A stretch of DNA of 32,953 nucleotides from Actinomycetes bacterium (GTDB taxonomy: Bacteria; Actinomycetota; Acidimicrobiia; Acidimicrobiales; Acidimicrobiaceae), in assembly GCA_021777475.1 (NCBI GenBank), contig JAJYDM010000015.1, positions 1 through 32,953 of the forward strand. Direction: 5' to 3'. This document shows, piece after piece, positions 2,744-17,863 of this stretch (position 1 is the stretch's first letter; each line of letters starts with the position of its first letter). Both the position numbers and the translations under genes were made by a program. Below the pieces are notes generated by a model. The model searched no databases and was not told the DNA's origin. It worked only from the letters and a program-made list of their open reading frames with translations.

Positions 2744-4224
2744 GGCCACCCCTTTAAAGTCTTTAACCAGATCGTACCCGTGATTTCAAGCCTTTCCGCA
2801 CCTCCTCGAACCCAATGGAAATCCCCGTTAACACTTCGACGAGTCAACCTGCAACGACTCTTGCCTCTCAGTGTCGATGCGACACAAGCGGCCGCGCAAA
2901 AGAAACAAACTAAACCAAAGCAATTGATTGAACATGTCTAAAAGGTACTTAAAATATCTGAAGATCGAACTTGAAACAGCTGATCACCCGAACTGCGGAA
3001 GCTGAAATGTATACCTCGAACGGTTGTGCAAGAACCCTGAACGGATCGGAACCCAAAAACTGCCTCAACGAGCGGCTTCTGCAGGATCCTTGGATGTTGC
3101 CCCCTATGCAATGGTCAGGTTGCCCAAATGGTTCAAAGGTGCAAGAGGCCGTAGAAAACGCGAAACAAGATCTCTCAATTATTCGCAAAAGCCGATGAAA
3201 CTGAGCAGCCAGAGTTCATCCCCATTCGAAACATCCCAGATCCGCCTCCGTGCGGAATTAGCGAGCAAGCCCATGACAGCACCTCGGCTTAGCCCAGTGA
3301 ACTGACCAGGGACAACTCCATTCATAAGCAACCTCAGAAAGATATTGGAGACGAGAACTTGACCCGCAACCTTATGAAATAAGCGGAACTGAATCAGGCC
3401 CGAGCGATACAGCGACTAAAACTTACTGGACATTATTTCGACCAGACAGTTGCTCGAACAGCGGGACCAACTCCAAAAAACCCGCATGCCAACGTCCGCA
3501 AGAATGCGAACGGCACAGAGACGGGGAGGACTAAGCCAGGCGACAGCAGCCAGCGCGCACTTACAGCCCTCGCTAAAAACGCTCCCAGCTACATATGCGA
3601 TTTGAAAGATCCAAGAGCCACTCCGGCCATTGACGCCACAAGGAGTGAATCCGCCGTAGCGGCGGTTGCTTTGCCAGGAGCGATGCACCGCCAACAATCC
3701 AAGTCCCCCAAAAAAAGAACCAGCCACATTGGCGTCGTTCCGTCATGGCCAAAAGTGACATTCACTACAGTTTGGTACAGTCGGCACAACGAGGAGTATC
3801 GATGTTGCTAAGTAAGAGTCTCACAAAACCAAATAAGCCACCCGACCGGCAAAAGCCACGCCCTAACCCGCTAAACCAATAAAACCTGGAAGCACACACA
3901 AAGACTGGTTTGTCCGATCAATGTGGTTTACACTGACATCTCGAAAGATCAACGAAAATGCGATTTTCCCATAGAAAACAACTGGAAGAGCAACGGATGC
4001 ACTCAGTGGACTGTTACACCTGCTCCCCGAGGTGATCGATCCTTCGCATCCAAATCAGGCACCCAACCAAAGAGGGAATACATAACATCAATTCCTTGTG
4101 CCAGACAATTACTCTTATTGAAAAATAGCTCTTGATTCCGTTCCGTGTAGTTGCTAGCTTGTTCTGGCCTCCTCCGAAATGCAGACGGAACCACCTTTAG
4201 CGGTTCACGATCCCGGACCATAGA
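2744..4224. other. Long intergenic stretch, about 1.5 kb
   Basis: This stretch separates the hydrolase gene from tadA and should contain promoters for both. No frame here has a convincing start, ribosome site and protein-like product over a useful length. A decayed membrane-protein-like frame on the minus strand at 3433-3789 is listed separately. I found no long inverted repeat, tRNA or mobile-element end. Confidence 0.5.
3433..3789 (-). pseudogene. Possible decayed small membrane protein
   Basis: A minus-strand frame runs from an ATG at 3789 and is broken by one TAG at 3589-3591, then stays open in the same frame for 51 more codons to a TAA at 3433-3435. Both halves are hydrophobic: the first contains PMWLVLFLGDL and the second ARWLLSPGLVLPVSVPFAFL. 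This is what a recently inactivated membrane protein would look like, but hydrophobic frames also arise by chance opposite GC-richer DNA. No family is recognised. Confidence 0.2.
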
Positions 4225-5565
4225 TTGAACAAACTCAACGCGCTGGCCCCCTCTGAACCTTTGGGAGCCGCCGCTCAGATAGAGCGACAGCTGCTCGAGC
4301 ATCTCCGTAGGACAGAGGCGGATCTCAATACTCGGTCATCGCTCAAGAACGCCCGAACAGAACTTGCAAATCTCATCGAAAAGTGGAATGAGGAACATCC
4401 TTCAAGGACGATTGGCGACAAAACCGGCTTTGGTGAGGTTGTTCTCAGAAACCTAATAGGCTTTGGGCCGATTGAACCGTTGCTGGAAGATGACACCATC
4501 TGGGAAATCTCCATCAATGGGCCCAAAGACATCTTCATCAAGTCGCACAACGGGCCTCCCCAGCGTCACAGTGAAGGCTTCCATGACGACCAGCACCTGG
4601 AAAGGGTCCTTTCACGGATGCTAGAGACCTCGGTGGGAAGCACTAGACAGTTGGACCCTTCCCTGGGAGTTCAAGACGCTCAGCTACCGGATGGGACAAG
4701 ACTCCACATTGTCCATCCTGACCTCACCCGCAATTTCTCATTTGCAGTTTCGGTTCGAAAGTTTGCCAAGAATTCATTGCGCAACATTGCGGACTTCGTG
4801 GAGGTTGGATCGATCTCTCCACAGGCAGGAGACTTCCTCTTTAGAGCCGTCGCATCCGGAGCCACCGTCCTCGTTTCAGGGGCACCTGGCACCGGCAAGA
4901 CCACCTTGCTAACTGCCATGATCGATGCTCTACCGGACACAAGGCGAATCGTGATCATAGAGGAAACCCCGGAAATAAGTCTTTGCAAGCCTGACAATGT
5001 TCAACTTCATACCCGCACCAACAGGCCGGGACGTATGGAGATTCAACTAAGGACGCTTGTGAAGGCAAGCCTGAGAATGGGAACCGATGTCCTGATCCTT
5101 GGGGAAGTCAGAGACACCGAAAGCTTGCCATTGCTTCTCGCCCTGTCAACCGGTGTCCAGGGAATGAGCACGGTCCACGCATCCAACTGCAGAGATGCGC
5201 TTGCGAGAGTTCGGCTATTGATGCAGCTGTCACTCGACAATGGAGTACCAATCTGGGCTGTGAACCAGATAATCGCCAATTCGATCGATTTCGTCGTCCA
5301 GCTCAAAAGGGTGGGCACCTCCATTGTGGTGGAAGAGATAATCGCCGTGGAGGAGGGCTCAAAAGACCTCGATTTCGGATTTGTGACTACCCAGATCTTC
5401 TCGCTTGAAAGCGCCGAGTGGAGGCTCAAGTTCTCGGGGCAAAATGCCTTGCGGTTCAACCAAACCAAGGTACAAAAAGAGCTTTCGGAGAGACTCATGA
5501 ACGCACGGTCAATTATCCCAGGAAACGGCAATCTCGTGGTGGCATTGGAGGAGGCAAACCTGTGA
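4225..5565 (+). CDS. tadA: TadA/CpaF family pilus assembly ATPase
   Basis: This 446-residue protein is the hexameric secretion ATPase (type II/IV GspE superfamily, CpaF branch) that powers Tad pilus assembly from the cytoplasmic face of the membrane. The N-terminal part carries the typical IGFGPIEPLLEDDTIWEI segment at about residues 75-95. Walker A (GAPGTGKTT) is near residue 218, Walker B (DVLILGEVRDTES) near 288, and the His-box (GMSTVHASNC) near 312. The length is normal. The TTG start at 4225 has only a weak GGA upstream; a stop at 4198-4200 in the same frame rules out a long extension, and no better start exists nearby. The end overlaps the start of tadB in a GTGA arrangement, indicating translational coupling. 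Confidence 0.93.
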   Translation: MNKLNALAPSEPLGAAAQIERQLLEHLRRTEADLNTRSSLKNARTELANLIEKWNEEHPSRTIGDKTGFGEVVLRNLIGFGPIEPLLEDDTIWEISINGPKDIFIKSHNGPPQRHSEGFHDDQHLERVLSRMLETSVGSTRQLDPSLGVQDAQLPDGTRLHIVHPDLTRNFSFAVSVRKFAKNSLRNIADFVEVGSISPQAGDFLFRAVASGATVLVSGAPGTGKTTLLTAMIDALPDTRRIVIIEETPEISLCKPDNVQLHTRTNRPGRMEIQLRTLVKASLRMGTDVLILGEVRDTESLPLLLALSTGVQGMSTVHASNCRDALARVRLLMQLSLDNGVPIWAVNQIIANSIDFVVQLKRVGTSIVVEEIIAVEEGSKDLDFGFVTTQIFSLESAEWRLKFSGQNALRFNQTKVQKELSERLMNARSIIPGNGNLVVALEEANL

Positions 5566-12809: not shown

Positions 12810-13073
12810 TTATCTGCGAAATAACGGGCTGGCTGCCAATTCGTAGGGAGTGCCAGCTACGGCTCCTTTGAGTCTCCATTTTGCCGCATCGTTTGCATTA
12901 AACTTTAAGTAGTCTGAAATAGATTCAAGCAGTTCCGAGTTGACTCCCGAGACATCGAGGACCGAGGCCCGTTCAAGCAGGGTGTGGGCGATAACAAACT
13001 CGCCAGCGACCATTGCCTCTAACAGTCTGTAGATGACTGTCACGGCTTCCCGTTGGGATCTACCCCGATTCAT
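12810..13073 (-). CDS. Small hypothetical protein downstream of hemW
   Basis: The 87-residue product starts at an ATG at 13073 that overlaps the end of hemW by 14 bases, suggesting translational coupling. It is predicted to be mostly helical (REAVTVIYRLLEAMVAGEFV, then ELLESISDYLKF) and has no membrane segment, Cys pair or recognised motif. I do not know its family. The downstream neighbour is the strong terminator at 12761-12802, beyond which transcription on the other strand ends. Overlap with hemW and natural composition favour a real gene. Confidence 0.55.
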   Translation of the reverse strand: MNRGRSQREAVTVIYRLLEAMVAGEFVIAHTLLERASVLDVSGVNSELLESISDYLKFNANDAAKWRLKGAVAGTPYELAASPLFRR

Positions 13074-14220
13074 TGTCAAGCCCCTGGATCGTTCCGGGTC
13101 CACTTCTTTGCAGACTGGCTAGCTGCTCCAAGGTCACTAGAGACGGATCTAGCCTCAGAGCCACCTGGTTGGCCAGGAGGCGGCCTTCCAGGTTCAAAGT
13201 GGTGATTCCCTCGGAGTCGGAGCACAGGAATCCGATCTCATCAAAGTTGGCGATAGCCTGCGTTGGCACGCCAACACTAGTTCTAACCAGCAGTTCCAGT
13301 GCCTCGCCAACTCTGTTCAGACCAACGACATCCTCCGATCCTGCGACTGCGTCGCCATTATGGCTCACGACGGAAATATAGCGATTCAAATTGAAGATAT
13401 TCCAACTCCTTTTGGAATCCATGTGGGAGTGGGCAGAGCATCCAAGCCCGACATATTCGCCCTGCATCCAATAGTTCCAATTGTGACGCGAATAAGAATC
13501 GGGCTTTGCCCAGTTGGAAACCTCATACCAGTTCAGTCCACTGTCGGAAAGCATTGAATCAATGAGACGGTAAGCGTCGGCTTGGAAGTCTTCATCGGGG
13601 TGGCGCCGTGGGTCCCTCGCCAATGGAGTGTTCTGTTCAACCGTGAGCGCATAGGCGGAGACGTGTACAGGTGCCGGTGACAGCTCCAATACTTTCTGAA
13701 GCGTATTTTCCAAGATACTCAGCGATTCCGCGGCCGCGCCATAGATCAGATCCACTGAGTAGTTTTCAAAACCAACCTCACCAATGGCATCCACAGCGGG
13801 ATAGATATCCTCTGGGTCGTGAAATCGGCCCAACGATTTGAGTACTTCCTTTGAAAAGCTTTGCAATCCTAGAGAAATCCTGTTTACGCCGCAGTCCTTA
13901 TACAACTTCAACTTGTCAAGGGTCGTCGACTCTGGATTGCATTCGATCGTCACTTCTGATCCAACCTGCACTCCGGCTTCCTGCACGATTCTCGAAATGT
14001 GCTGAGGTGGCAACAGCGAGGGAGTACCACCACCAAAGTAGAGGCTGTTGGGAGAGCAGATCTCGCCTTTGGAACGCCTCCACTTCAACTCTGCCACTAC
14101 AGCGTCAACATAGGCGTCCACCCGATCATCGGCCCCGGCCCAGGTGGCAAATGCGCAGTAGTCGCACCTAGAGACACAGAAAGGAATGTGGACATAAAGT
14201 CCTCGGCCAGCTAACACCAT
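13060..14220 (-). CDS. hemW: HemW, radical SAM heme chaperone-like protein
   Basis: This 386-residue protein belongs to the HemN/HemW group of radical SAM proteins. The N-terminus YVHIPFCVSRCDYCAF contains the CxxxCxxC [4Fe-4S] cluster motif at residues 17-24. GGGTPSLL, around residue 64, is the SAM-binding glycine motif, and the SLGLQSFSKEVLKSLGR segment follows. HemW proteins are heme-binding chaperones that were long annotated as oxygen-independent coproporphyrinogen oxidases; size, the N-terminal cluster motif position and the lepA/hrcA neighbourhood favour HemW. The ATG start is preceded by an 81-base gap from the bldD-like gene. Confidence 0.92.
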   Translation of the reverse strand: MVLAGRGLYVHIPFCVSRCDYCAFATWAGADDRVDAYVDAVVAELKWRRSKGEICSPNSLYFGGGTPSLLPPQHISRIVQEAGVQVGSEVTIECNPESTTLDKLKLYKDCGVNRISLGLQSFSKEVLKSLGRFHDPEDIYPAVDAIGEVGFENYSVDLIYGAAAESLSILENTLQKVLELSPAPVHVSAYALTVEQNTPLARDPRRHPDEDFQADAYRLIDSMLSDSGLNWYEVSNWAKPDSYSRHNWNYWMQGEYVGLGCSAHSHMDSKRSWNIFNLNRYISVVSHNGDAVAGSEDVVGLNRVGEALELLVRTSVGVPTQAIANFDEIGFLCSDSEGITTLNLEGRLLANQVALRLDPSLVTLEQLASLQRSGPGTIQGLDNESG

Positions 14221-14301: not shown

Positions 14302-14898
14302 CTAGTTCTGAATCCTCAAACCAAGGTCCTCAAGCCTCCTGGCCATGTCTTCCGCGGTTAGCTCGAACAGGCATGCCAAAACCTTCAGATCCTCATGTCG
14401 AATCGTGATCATCCTGCCATTAAAGTCCTGCCTTTGCACCTGAATCATTGAAAGATACCTGCGCAAGAGCTCCTTTTCAGGACCATCCATGAGATTAAGC
14501 TTGATCAGGTCGATGGTGACTTTGATACTGGGCTCGATCAATGGCGTCCGGCGCTCTTCACCAACAGCAACGGAAAAGGACTCTACCACCTCTTCCCCAC
14601 CACTGTTCGGCACTGAAAAGTTGACCAGAGGAACTATTGGTGTCTTGGGAGCAAGCTGCCTTGGAAGCAATTGATCCACGGGCACATCGTAGAGTTCGGC
14701 AAGGCGCTGTAGCCTGGGCACAGAGATCGAACGCTCACCACGCTCGTACGCACCAAGAACACTTGCCTTGAACTCCTGGTTTGAAGCCTCTTCCACCGCG
14801 TGAAGAGACAGATGCTTCTGCTTTCGGACAGAGCGAAGCCTCAGCCCCACCTTCCTCGCAAAACCATCGGATACCTCTTCATCCTCATTCACAGCCAT
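14302..14898 (-). CDS. bldD: BldD-like HTH regulator with c-di-GMP signature
   Basis: From the ATG at 14898 the product is 198 residues. An N-terminal XRE-type helix-turn-helix (LRLRSVRKQKHLSLHAVEEA, then AYERGERSISVPRLQRLAEL) closely follows the BldD pattern, followed by a linker and a C-terminal domain from about residue 120. That domain contains Arg156-x-Asp158, eight residues, then Arg167-x-x-Asp170, which is exactly the RxD-x8-RxxD signature by which Streptomyces BldD binds tetrameric c-di-GMP and then dimerises on DNA. A TTG at 14928 is an alternative start, but it lies only a few bases after a good -10 box (TACAAT, 14931-14936), so ATG fits better. Likely role: c-di-GMP-responsive master repressor. 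Confidence 0.88.
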   Translation of the reverse strand: MAVNEDEEVSDGFARKVGLRLRSVRKQKHLSLHAVEEASNQEFKASVLGAYERGERSISVPRLQRLAELYDVPVDQLLPRQLAPKTPIVPLVNFSVPNSGGEEVVESFSVAVGEERRTPLIEPSIKVTIDLIKLNLMDGPEKELLRRYLSMIQVQRQDFNGRMITIRHEDLKVLACLFELTAEDMARRLEDLGLRIQN

Positions 14899-14930
14899 AG
14901 TCTTAGCCAAGCACCACCCTATGTTCAATA

Positions 14931-14989
14931 ATTGTACGCATGCGACCGCTCACAGTGAAATAATAGCATATACGCTACTCACAGTAAAA
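14931..14989 (-). promoter_or_regulatory. Probable bldD-like promoter with repeated CTCACAGT boxes
   Basis: On the minus strand TACAAT (14931-14936) is a near-consensus -10 box placing transcription start about 25 bases before the chosen ATG. Upstream are two near-identical boxes on the + strand, CTCACAGTGAAA (14949-14960) and CTCACAGTAAAA (14978-14989), 29 bases apart. The first includes the palindrome TCACAGTGA, whose CACAGTG core partly agrees with the published Streptomyces BldD box. Autoregulation is inference. The second box overlaps the end of rsmE. Confidence 0.45.
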
Positions 14990-15716
14990 GGCCTAATCGT
15001 CTTACAGAAAGTATGCCGGAAACAACAACTGCAGCGGTTTCCGATCTCAAGATATTCCTTCCCAGGCCAAACCTACGGGAAAATAACTCCAGTTCAGAGT
15101 GGATAAATCCGCCCTCGGGGCCGACAACCGTCGGAACACCAAGCTCCAAAGCATCCGTACCACCCTGTGTACACACGCCGCACCCAGGGTACATTTCGAC
15201 GAAACTCTCCAAACTTTCTATTGGAAACAGAGTTGGCAGAAACGGTGAGCGTGACTGCATTCCCGCCTCCCTAATGACCCTTGCCAGCTTCTTTAGGTCA
15301 TTGCCATCCGTCTCAAGACCGGACTTTCTAACCGATGAGAACTTGGAGTAAAGCAGATGAATCTGGTCAACGCCCAGCTCGGTCATTTTCTGCAAGGCCC
15401 AACCGGCCCGATCAAGTGAAGGGAGGCAGAAACCGACCACAATTGGCGGTTCTTGCCTGGTCTCTTGAAATATTTCACCGGAAAAGTCGATCTGAATACA
15501 GGCCTTTCCACGGCTGCGACCCGTCTCGCGCAGTAAAGCCACTCTCCATCGGCCTTGCCCGTCACCAAGGGTTATTGCGTCTCCAGTTCTTAGTCGACGA
15601 ACTGCACCGAGATGATGCTGGTCTTCCTCCGTCAATTCGGCCCGGTGAAGATCCTCCACCACCACATGGGCAACTCCCGACTCCGCTAAAGACGTCATCC
15701 CTGGCACAGGGGACAT
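14979..15716 (-). CDS. rsmE: RsmE, 16S rRNA m3U1498 methyltransferase
   Basis: The 245-residue protein matches RsmE, a SPOUT (alpha/beta-knot) methyltransferase that modifies U1498 of 16S rRNA using SAM. An N-terminal PUA-like domain (AELTEEDQHHLGAVRRLRTGDAI) is followed by the SPOUT domain, with the knot motif VVGPEGGF near residue 200 and the closing LGRNILRSETAAV near residue 225. The ATG at 15716 lies four bases after the dnaJ stop. An internal ATG six codons later (15698) is possible. It is the third gene of the hrcA-dnaJ-rsmE run, a common actinobacterial arrangement. Confidence 0.93.
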   Translation of the reverse strand: MSPVPGMTSLAESGVAHVVVEDLHRAELTEEDQHHLGAVRRLRTGDAITLGDGQGRWRVALLRETGRSRGKACIQIDFSGEIFQETRQEPPIVVGFCLPSLDRAGWALQKMTELGVDQIHLLYSKFSSVRKSGLETDGNDLKKLARVIREAGMQSRSPFLPTLFPIESLESFVEMYPGCGVCTQGGTDALELGVPTVVGPEGGFIHSELELFSRRFGLGRNILRSETAAVVVSGILSVRRLGLLL

Positions 15717-15720
15717 GAAA

Positions 15721-16842
15721 CTACTTGAATGCCGACTTGATCTTGGAGAATATTCCGTGATCCCGATCGGCCACCTCTTCTCCTCTCAGGTCGGCAATTC
15801 TTCTAAAAAGTTCATCCTGGTCTGTATCAAGGTGGGCCGGTATTTCAACCAGAACCGTCACTACAAGGTCTCCACGGCGACCGCTGCCACGAAGGTCGGG
15901 AACTCCACGCGATCTGAGCCTGAACTGAGTTCCGGACTGAGTTCCTTGCGGTATTACAAGGTCCTCGGCACCGTCGAGTGTCTCAAATTTAAGAGCAGCA
16001 CCGAGGACTGCCTGAGACAAGGGAATGGTCAAATCGCATCTGAGTTCGTTGCCCTCCCGCCGGAAACGCGGATGCGGCTTTACCCTGATCTGAACGTACA
16101 AATCACCTGGCAAACCACCCCTTGGACCGGCTGGTCCCCGACCGGCAAGTCTAAGAGTAGATCCATGGTCCACCCCTGCGGGAATTTCAACCGAATAGGT
16201 TCGCTCCTCAGTACGACGACCCTCTCCACGACAGTCCTGGCAGGGAGTGGTGATCACCATGCCTTCACCCCGGCAGCGATCACACGGTGCCGTGGTAACC
16301 ATTCTTCCCAATATCGACTGAGCCACCCTCCTGACTTGACCGGTTCCGTCACAAACCGGACAGGAGCTTGCGGTTGTTCCTGGCTTTGCCCCAGATCCTG
16401 AACAAGTGGCACAAGTTACCGGCAGCCTGATAGTGACGTCCTTCTGTGCGCCAAAAACCGCTTCATCGAAGGAAAGGTCCACGTACACTTCGCTATCCGC
16501 ACCCCGCTGAGGACCTTTGCGTTGCTGGTTGAATCCACCACCGAAGGCCGACCCGAAGAAGGCGCCGAAGATGTCGTTGATTCCTCCTGCGCCGAACGGA
16601 CCGGCATCCCCAGCACCTCCGCGAAGCCCATCCTCTCCATATGTGTCGTAAATGCGACGTTTTTCTGGATCCCTCAGTGTTTCGTAAGCCGTAGTGATCT
16701 CTTTGAAACGGTCCTCCAACTCCTTATCGCCGCCGTTGGCATCAGGGTGAAGCTCCCTGGCCAAACGACGATAAGCCTTTTTGATTTCATCTTCGGAGGC
16801 GCTCCTCGAAACACCTAGAAGGCTGTAATAATCGTGTGCCAA
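15721..16842 (-). CDS. dnaJ: Chaperone protein DnaJ
   Basis: A complete 373-residue type I DnaJ. The J domain (residues 1-70) has the HPD motif in RELHPDANGG. A Gly/Phe-rich linker (residues 74-110) follows, then four zinc-binding CxxCxGxG repeats: CATCSGSG, CPVCDGTG, CDRCRGEG and CQDCRGEG. The C-terminal substrate-binding domains complete it. It stimulates DnaK ATPase and delivers unfolded proteins. The TTG start lies seven bases beyond the hrcA stop, with GAGGGA upstream inside the hrcA end, so the genes are coupled and should share CIRCE control. No dnaK or grpE is in the window. Confidence 0.97.
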   Translation of the reverse strand: MAHDYYSLLGVSRSASEDEIKKAYRRLARELHPDANGGDKELEDRFKEITTAYETLRDPEKRRIYDTYGEDGLRGGAGDAGPFGAGGINDIFGAFFGSAFGGGFNQQRKGPQRGADSEVYVDLSFDEAVFGAQKDVTIRLPVTCATCSGSGAKPGTTASSCPVCDGTGQVRRVAQSILGRMVTTAPCDRCRGEGMVITTPCQDCRGEGRRTEERTYSVEIPAGVDHGSTLRLAGRGPAGPRGGLPGDLYVQIRVKPHPRFRREGNELRCDLTIPLSQAVLGAALKFETLDGAEDLVIPQGTQSGTQFRLRSRGVPDLRGSGRRGDLVVTVLVEIPAHLDTDQDELFRRIADLRGEEVADRDHGIFSKIKSAFK

Positions 16843-16849
16843 CTAATCT

Positions 16850-17863
16850 CTATCCCTCACTGAGTCTTTTTCCAAGTCCCGCACTGACCAAATTTACCGC
16901 TGCCAATACCTTCGGGTAGTTCATCCGCGTGGGACCAACCAGACCTATAGATCCTACCTGCTCACCTTCCACCACATATGGCGAAACCACCACAGAACAC
17001 TCCGCAAGTGGTGCAATTCCAAGCTCGGACCCAATGGCGACCTTCTGACCTTTGGACAGAACGTCTCTAATCAACGACACCACCAAAAAGTGCTGTTCAA
17101 GTGTCACCAAAACCCTTCGCACGGTGTCCACGGCATCAAAAGCGCTGGCCACCTTCGATGCTCCTTCGATATAGACACTCTCGGTCTCTCCTTGGAACTC
17201 TCGCAGACTTTCAACAGCCAAGACACAGATCTGATCAACAAGCGGTTCACCCAACGGTTCAGGCTCGTCCAGCGAGCCCAACGGAACACCACGCAACCGT
17301 CTGGTTAAAAAGTTGGACGCAACTTCGAGTTCGGATTCACTAATCTCTATACTCAGCTCCAGCGTCTTCTTCTCTACAGCGCCCTTTGAATCCACCATCA
17401 GCAACAGGACTCTCTTGGGATCAAGTGAGATTAGCTGAACCGAACGAATGAGAACCGTCTCCGGGCTTGGCCCAGTCACTACAGCCGCATAGTTCGTCAA
17501 ATTGGTCAAGAGGCGCGATGTATCGCTAAACATCTCCGCCAACGCCCCGTGGGCCTTGGTGAAGAACTCCTCGACGCTCTGAAACTGCATGACATCGGAG
17601 TCATTCGTATCGCTCACAAATGTGTCCACATAGTACCTGTAACCCTTGTCAGTGGGAATTCGACCCGCACTGGTGTGAGGTTGAGTCAGATATCCCTCAT
17701 GCTCCAAGAGATTCATCTCGTTCCGAATCGTAGCGGGAGAGACTTGGATTCCCGCAATACGAGCCAGTAGAGACGACCCCACAGGTTCAGCGCACTGAAC
17801 ATATTCATCAACAACCGCCCGCAGAATAGCGGCTTTTCTTGAGTCCATAAAACCTGACATCAT
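16850..17863 (-). CDS. hrcA: Heat-inducible transcription repressor HrcA
   Basis: The 337-residue product begins with the HrcA winged helix (RKAAILRAVVDEYVQCAEPVGS, then PATIRNEMNLLEHEGYLTQPHTSAGRIPT), followed by the GAF-like and dimerisation regions ending in VVSPYVVEGEQVGSIGLVGP and MNYPKVLAAVNLV. HrcA binds CIRCE operators and represses chaperone genes until heat stress. I use the ATG at 17863; an ATG at 17848 (MDSRKAAIL) agrees better with the usual family N-terminus and is a fair alternative. A CIRCE element lies 22 bases upstream, showing autoregulation. Confidence 0.95.
   Translation of the reverse strand: MMSGFMDSRKAAILRAVVDEYVQCAEPVGSSLLARIAGIQVSPATIRNEMNLLEHEGYLTQPHTSAGRIPTDKGYRYYVDTFVSDTNDSDVMQFQSVEEFFTKAHGALAEMFSDTSRLLTNLTNYAAVVTGPSPETVLIRSVQLISLDPKRVLLLMVDSKGAVEKKTLELSIEISESELEVASNFLTRRLRGVPLGSLDEPEPLGEPLVDQICVLAVESLREFQGETESVYIEGASKVASAFDAVDTVRRVLVTLEQHFLVVSLIRDVLSKGQKVAIGSELGIAPLAECSVVVSPYVVEGEQVGSIGLVGPTRMNYPKVLAAVNLVSAGLGKRLSEG

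Follow-up and report, generated by a model that had tools for sequence, protein, structure and literature searches.

The bldD-like gene and its surroundings

The window, i.e. the whole stretch of 32,953 nucleotides analysed here, comes from an uncultured acidimicrobiian with a GC content of 52% and a genome of 2.28 Mb (96% complete). Its closest relatives were acidimicrobiian MAGs sharing 82-90% identity (L097-L103) and a tree placed the window among them, in agreement with the original prediction of a lower-GC, non-Streptomyces actinobacterium. The gene under study, located on the reverse strand (14302..14898), encodes 198 amino acids from an ATG at 14898 to a stop codon at 14302-14304 and specifies the only BldD-like protein of this genome. 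A TTG at 14928, 10 codons upstream of the ATG, is a possible alternative start; in relatives, however, the position of the ATG is conserved as ATG or GTG.

Several conserved neighbours, all on the reverse strand, surround this gene: a hemW-like radical SAM gene downstream (13060..14220, PF04055), rsmE upstream (14979..15716, PF04452 and PF20260), followed by dnaJ and hrcA (15721..17863, assigned by Pfam matches and neighbourhood comparison). Most of the order shows the block hrcA-dnaJ-rsmE-bldD-hemW, with lepA near, a pattern that speaks for bldD having been inherited vertically. Two members of the order carried a second, divergent paralogue (L053, L055). A homologue was also present in a cultured relative, Aciditerrimonas ferrireducens (L132), and a search of viral contigs for relatives found none.

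The product was confirmed as a BldD-like protein, related to BldD, which represses sporulation in Streptomyces, as had been predicted. Its XRE-type helix-turn-helix (HTH) DNA-binding domain (residues 11-83, 14650..14868, reverse strand) matched Pfam HTH_3 (PF01381) with 38.3 bits and the solved BldD DNA-binding domain (2EWT) with 51% identity over 71 residues and a Z score of 14.2. The putative c-di-GMP-binding C-terminal domain (CTD; residues 124-198, 14305..14529, reverse strand) aligned with 5KHD_A and matched Pfam PF21179 (BldD-like_C) over residues 126-193 with 69 bits, against a gathering score of 27. Expectation values from phmmer were 8e-18 for the BldD DNA-binding domain (2EWT) and about 2e-8 for structures of the BldD CTD with c-di-GMP. 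Together, the CTD score, the N-terminal XRE HTH and the placement of the signature within the fold are those of the BldD-like_C family. The NCBIfam BldD equivalog NF050110 scored 138.5 bits, below its cut-off of 250, and the protein was therefore filed as BldD-like, outside the Streptomyces-type equivalog. Since relatives across the phylum share its features, the gene is well supported as one more representative of an established family, not as a new system.

The c-di-GMP signature and the supply of c-di-GMP

Two motifs form the signature of the CTD, both assigned by sequence and structure alignment on the reverse strand: R156-Q-D158 (14425..14433), equivalent to BldD R114-x-D116, and R167-H-E-D170 (14389..14400), equivalent to R125-x-x-D128. 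The full pattern RQD-X8-RHED is present once in the protein, where residue composition predicts 0.004 occurrences for a protein of this size, and it falls at exactly the place that the signature occupies in the solved CTD of BldD, so that it is not a chance match. An AlphaFold2 model built from 65 acidimicrobiian sequences reached pLDDT values of mostly 79-92 in the CTD, with low confidence in the linker (81-121); a single-sequence fold of the CTD was poor (pLDDT 65) and was left out. The modelled CTD superposed on 5KHD_A with a Z score of 10.9 and an rmsd of 2.1 over 71 residues, placing residues 126-197 onto 84-155. Owing to this offset of 42 residues, R156, D158, R167 and D170 fall on R114, D116, R125 and D128, so that the refuting condition set by the original prediction, a fold in which the four residues lie apart, does not apply. 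All nine c-di-GMP contacts listed for BldD by Tschowri et al. (PMC4151990) could be mapped, seven of them identical: besides the four signature residues, K84 corresponds to K126, I110 to I152, N118 to N160, S123 to T165 and R130 to K172, the last two pairs being the substitutions. Judging from signature and register, this domain is likely to bind c-di-GMP. Counting against a repressor of the BldD type, the CTD is only about 30% identical to that of Streptomyces BldD and a stretch of the HTH differs (EFKASVLGAYERGER versus RWKAVVVGSYERGDR in Streptomyces).

A profile search found the family in 115 of 396 genomes of the phylum. Because a set of loci seeded partly on motif 1 (80 of 80 with the signature) is biased, conservation was evaluated on profile-selected homologues. 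Equivalents of R114, R125 and D128 were invariant in the class and in the phylum, and D116 was matched by aspartate in 25 of 26 and 50 of 54 aligned homologues, respectively. The nine contact positions exceeded the remaining CTD positions in conservation, both in the class (0.90 vs 0.56, p 5e-5) and in the phylum (0.81 vs 0.54, p 0.002). Exceptions to the signature were few (L060, L067, L080, L092, L093). Throughout the phylum, nearly all members of the family thus carry the signature, which is not special to this genome. One of the exceptions, an acidimicrobiian homologue (L060, 4896-5426, genome G199), has REN in place of RxD as motif 1 and many GGDEF proteins encoded in its genome; it may offer a naturally occurring case in which to study loss of the signature.

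These data bear on an earlier claim that the gene would extend BldD to a new lineage. The host is indeed not a Streptomyces, but the claim goes too far, given the near-universal signature and the convincing bldD orthologue reported in Acidimicrobium in 2014 by Chandra and Chater (PMC4255298). That report predates the discovery of c-di-GMP binding and is silent on signature and operator; Tschowri et al. described the signature as strictly conserved in sporulating actinomycetes (PMC4151990). A literature search whose coverage excluded most subscription papers found no report of the signature in Acidimicrobiia.

The genome encodes three EAL domains and five GGDEF domains; four of the latter retain their GGDEF motif intact and have an I-site-like RxxD. 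GGDEF proteins were present in all 115 genomes of the phylum bearing bldD and in 242 of the 281 lacking it (396 genomes, p 1e-6); for order and class, the counts were 24/24 and 6/14 (Fisher p 6e-5). Both tests treat genomes as independent and ignore shared ancestry. The PilZ domain was absent from the genome. One MshEN domain was found, and the idea of BldD as the sole c-di-GMP receptor was rejected on this ground.

It is possible that the protein is a c-di-GMP-independent XRE repressor whose signature is conserved for the fold or for protein contacts. Homologues that lack the signature but share the domain layout (G199, G021, G006, G105, G061) show that the family can persist without it, and the many GGDEF proteins retained by G199 count against the co-occurrence argument. 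However, the arginine and aspartate contacts rank with the best-conserved positions in a CTD that varies elsewhere, GGDEF proteins are missing from none of the bldD-bearing genomes, and charge-swap of signature residues abolishes binding in Streptomyces BldD (PMC4151990). We therefore consider a c-di-GMP-independent repressor improbable.

The bldD promoter and candidate targets

A sigma-70-like promoter, TTTACT-17-TATTAT (14960..14988, reverse strand), was assigned to bldD by consensus match only. Two BldD-box-like sites accompany it on the same strand. The first, TCACTGTGAGCGG (14946..14958), lies just downstream of the -10-like hexamer and was recognised from its footprint and from class-wide enrichment: alignment of the window with its seven closest relatives revealed that a site of the CACN5GTG type is conserved some 50-60 bp ahead of the bldD start, after the -10-like element; the window copy is a degenerate form, whereas all seven relatives carry CACN5GTG. 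The second, TTACTGTGAGTAG (14975..14987), overlaps both the -35-like hexamer and the stop codon of rsmE; it has five of the six consensus bases and was not conserved in the upstream alignment of the relatives. An exact TNACN5GTNA box is thus absent from this promoter, which holds one site with 5/6 fixed bases and one weaker site.

CACN5GTG makes up the central part of the BldD box known from Streptomyces, TNACN5GTNA (PMC4151990), and the Streptomyces loci of our set had two exact boxes upstream of bldD. Of 107 acidimicrobiian loci, 74 had this core in the roughly 200 bp preceding bldD, or 59 of 91 after removal of redundancy, as compared with 5-13 for control spacers of 0-4 and 6-11 and with 3-10% for regions upstream of rsmE, dnaJ, hrcA and hemW. 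An apparent excess upstream of lepA (17/48) was due to partial matches and was discarded, as 1 of 31 remained with true starts. Since the core occurs at so many bldD promoters against low controls, autoregulation of bldD looks conserved in Acidimicrobiia. Putative operators that cover the -35 and directly follow the -10 would fit repression. This class-wide putative autoregulatory operator and the co-occurrence of bldD with GGDEF genes are what the present analysis adds.

The Tad pilus encoded in the same window had been proposed as a plausible target, and BldD might accordingly act mainly on these genes, linking attachment to surfaces with c-di-GMP. In the genus, bldD has Tad genes at a distance of up to 10 kb, and a few other lineages (L049, L052, L054, L170) also have them nearby; one exact box, TCACCGAAAGTTA, is found at position 948, 107 bp upstream of a cpaB-like ORF. 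Nevertheless, this box was missing from five relatives possessing the cpaB-like gene, no box core was detected near the start of the gene for the TadA-like secretion ATPase (4225..5565, forward strand, PF00437, 128 bits) in seven relatives, and the housekeeping cluster around bldD is kept whether or not Tad genes adjoin. Control of the Tad pilus as the main role of BldD is thus very unlikely, and the proposed target found no backing.

Some further features of the Tad region are worth reporting. In L049, L052, L054 and L170, which belong to other families of the order, the distance between bldD and Tad genes is likewise no more than about 8 kb, and the recurring linkage may reflect ancestral gene order. 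A promoter-like element, TTGATTCC...GTTGCTAGCTTGTT-N3-GCCTCCTCCGAAA (4132-4179), located about 50-90 bp upstream of tadA, was conserved in seven relatives while the surrounding DNA was not. Upstream of the cpaB-like ORF (1055-1831), an element of the GCCCGATCCCT type (1007-1017), which may resemble a sigma-28-type -10, was kept in five relatives, with one variant. The cpaB-like gene is separated from the remaining Tad cluster by about 1.4 kb devoid of any convincing gene (2750-4200), between a metallo-beta-lactamase-like gene and tadA.

Genome-wide, TCACN5GTNA showed no enrichment (194 sites vs 205 for a reversed-pattern control); the perfect palindrome TCACN5GTGA occurred 39 times vs 22 for the reversed control. 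A partial survey covering 21-22 of these 39 perfect sites and three genus-level genomes revealed no conserved intergenic target. The two palindrome pairs in the same register that involve this genome, in a DinB-like gene and an acyl-CoA dehydrogenase gene, were rejected as they lie inside coding sequence and are shared because of protein conservation.

A narrower version of our preferred explanation would have BldD act mainly as an autoregulator and as a regulator of c-di-GMP enzyme genes, in a feedback circuit. The CACN5GTG core was present upstream of two of the five GGDEF genes, as compared with about 4% of random 230-bp windows: on contig C75 (L002), it precedes the ATG of a GGDEF-EAL gene by 47 bp, and on contig C129 (L005), it lies about 224 bp ahead of the first start of a GGDEF gene. 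Streptomyces BldD targets include cdgA, cdgB, cdgC and cdgE, so that such feedback is seen in part there (PMC8325347). These numbers are small, however, and both boxes, identified in this genome, are imperfect; restriction of BldD to this circuit may be envisaged but is rather unlikely.

Proposed mechanism and comparison with known systems

From its domains, signature and promoter, the protein is very probably a BldD-type, c-di-GMP-dependent transcriptional repressor. We infer that high c-di-GMP, supplied by the genome's own diguanylate cyclases, would lead the RQD-X8-RHED surfaces of two CTDs to bind a c-di-GMP tetramer. The tetramer would pair two protomers, allowing their HTH domains to bind a BldD box (TNACN5GTNA-like). 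The bldD promoter would be one operator, resulting in negative autoregulation, and a wider regulon may exist.

On a broader scale, BldD-(c-di-GMP) may be an ancient c-di-GMP output of Actinomycetota predating sporulation, acting in Acidimicrobiia as an autoregulated switch on non-developmental genes, possibly those of c-di-GMP enzymes, and recruited later for development in Streptomyces; we see this scenario as evenly balanced between right and wrong. If binding were confirmed, c-di-GMP sensing of the tetramer type would be demonstrated beyond the sporulating actinomycetes, where it has been studied, and the original job of BldD could be addressed in small-genome, non-Streptomyces actinobacteria. 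The conserved putative autoregulatory operator represents a concrete, testable target on DNA in a class where our literature search revealed no report of a BldD target.

Three known systems come close, one of them being BldD of S. venezuelae and S. coelicolor (2EWT, 4OAZ, 5KHD). Both proteins share the succession of HTH, linker and CTD, the RXD-X8-RXXD register, the basic, I, N and S/T contacts and, in imperfect form in the window, BldD-box-like sites at their own promoters. The acidimicrobiian protein differs by its low CTD identity, its longer linker (about 40 low-confidence residues), its HTH residues, the replacement of R130 by K, its conserved rsmE-bldD-hemW neighbourhood and its lack of a known developmental role. 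The Acidimicrobium orthologue (PMC4255298) belongs to the same class and presumably to the same orthologous group. The RsiG-sigma WhiG switch is likewise a c-di-GMP output found in Streptomyces and in non-sporulating actinobacteria, and it controls type IV pili in Rubrobacter (PMC8325347). However, its proteins are unrelated to BldD and no FliA/WhiG sigma scored above the cut-off in this genome.
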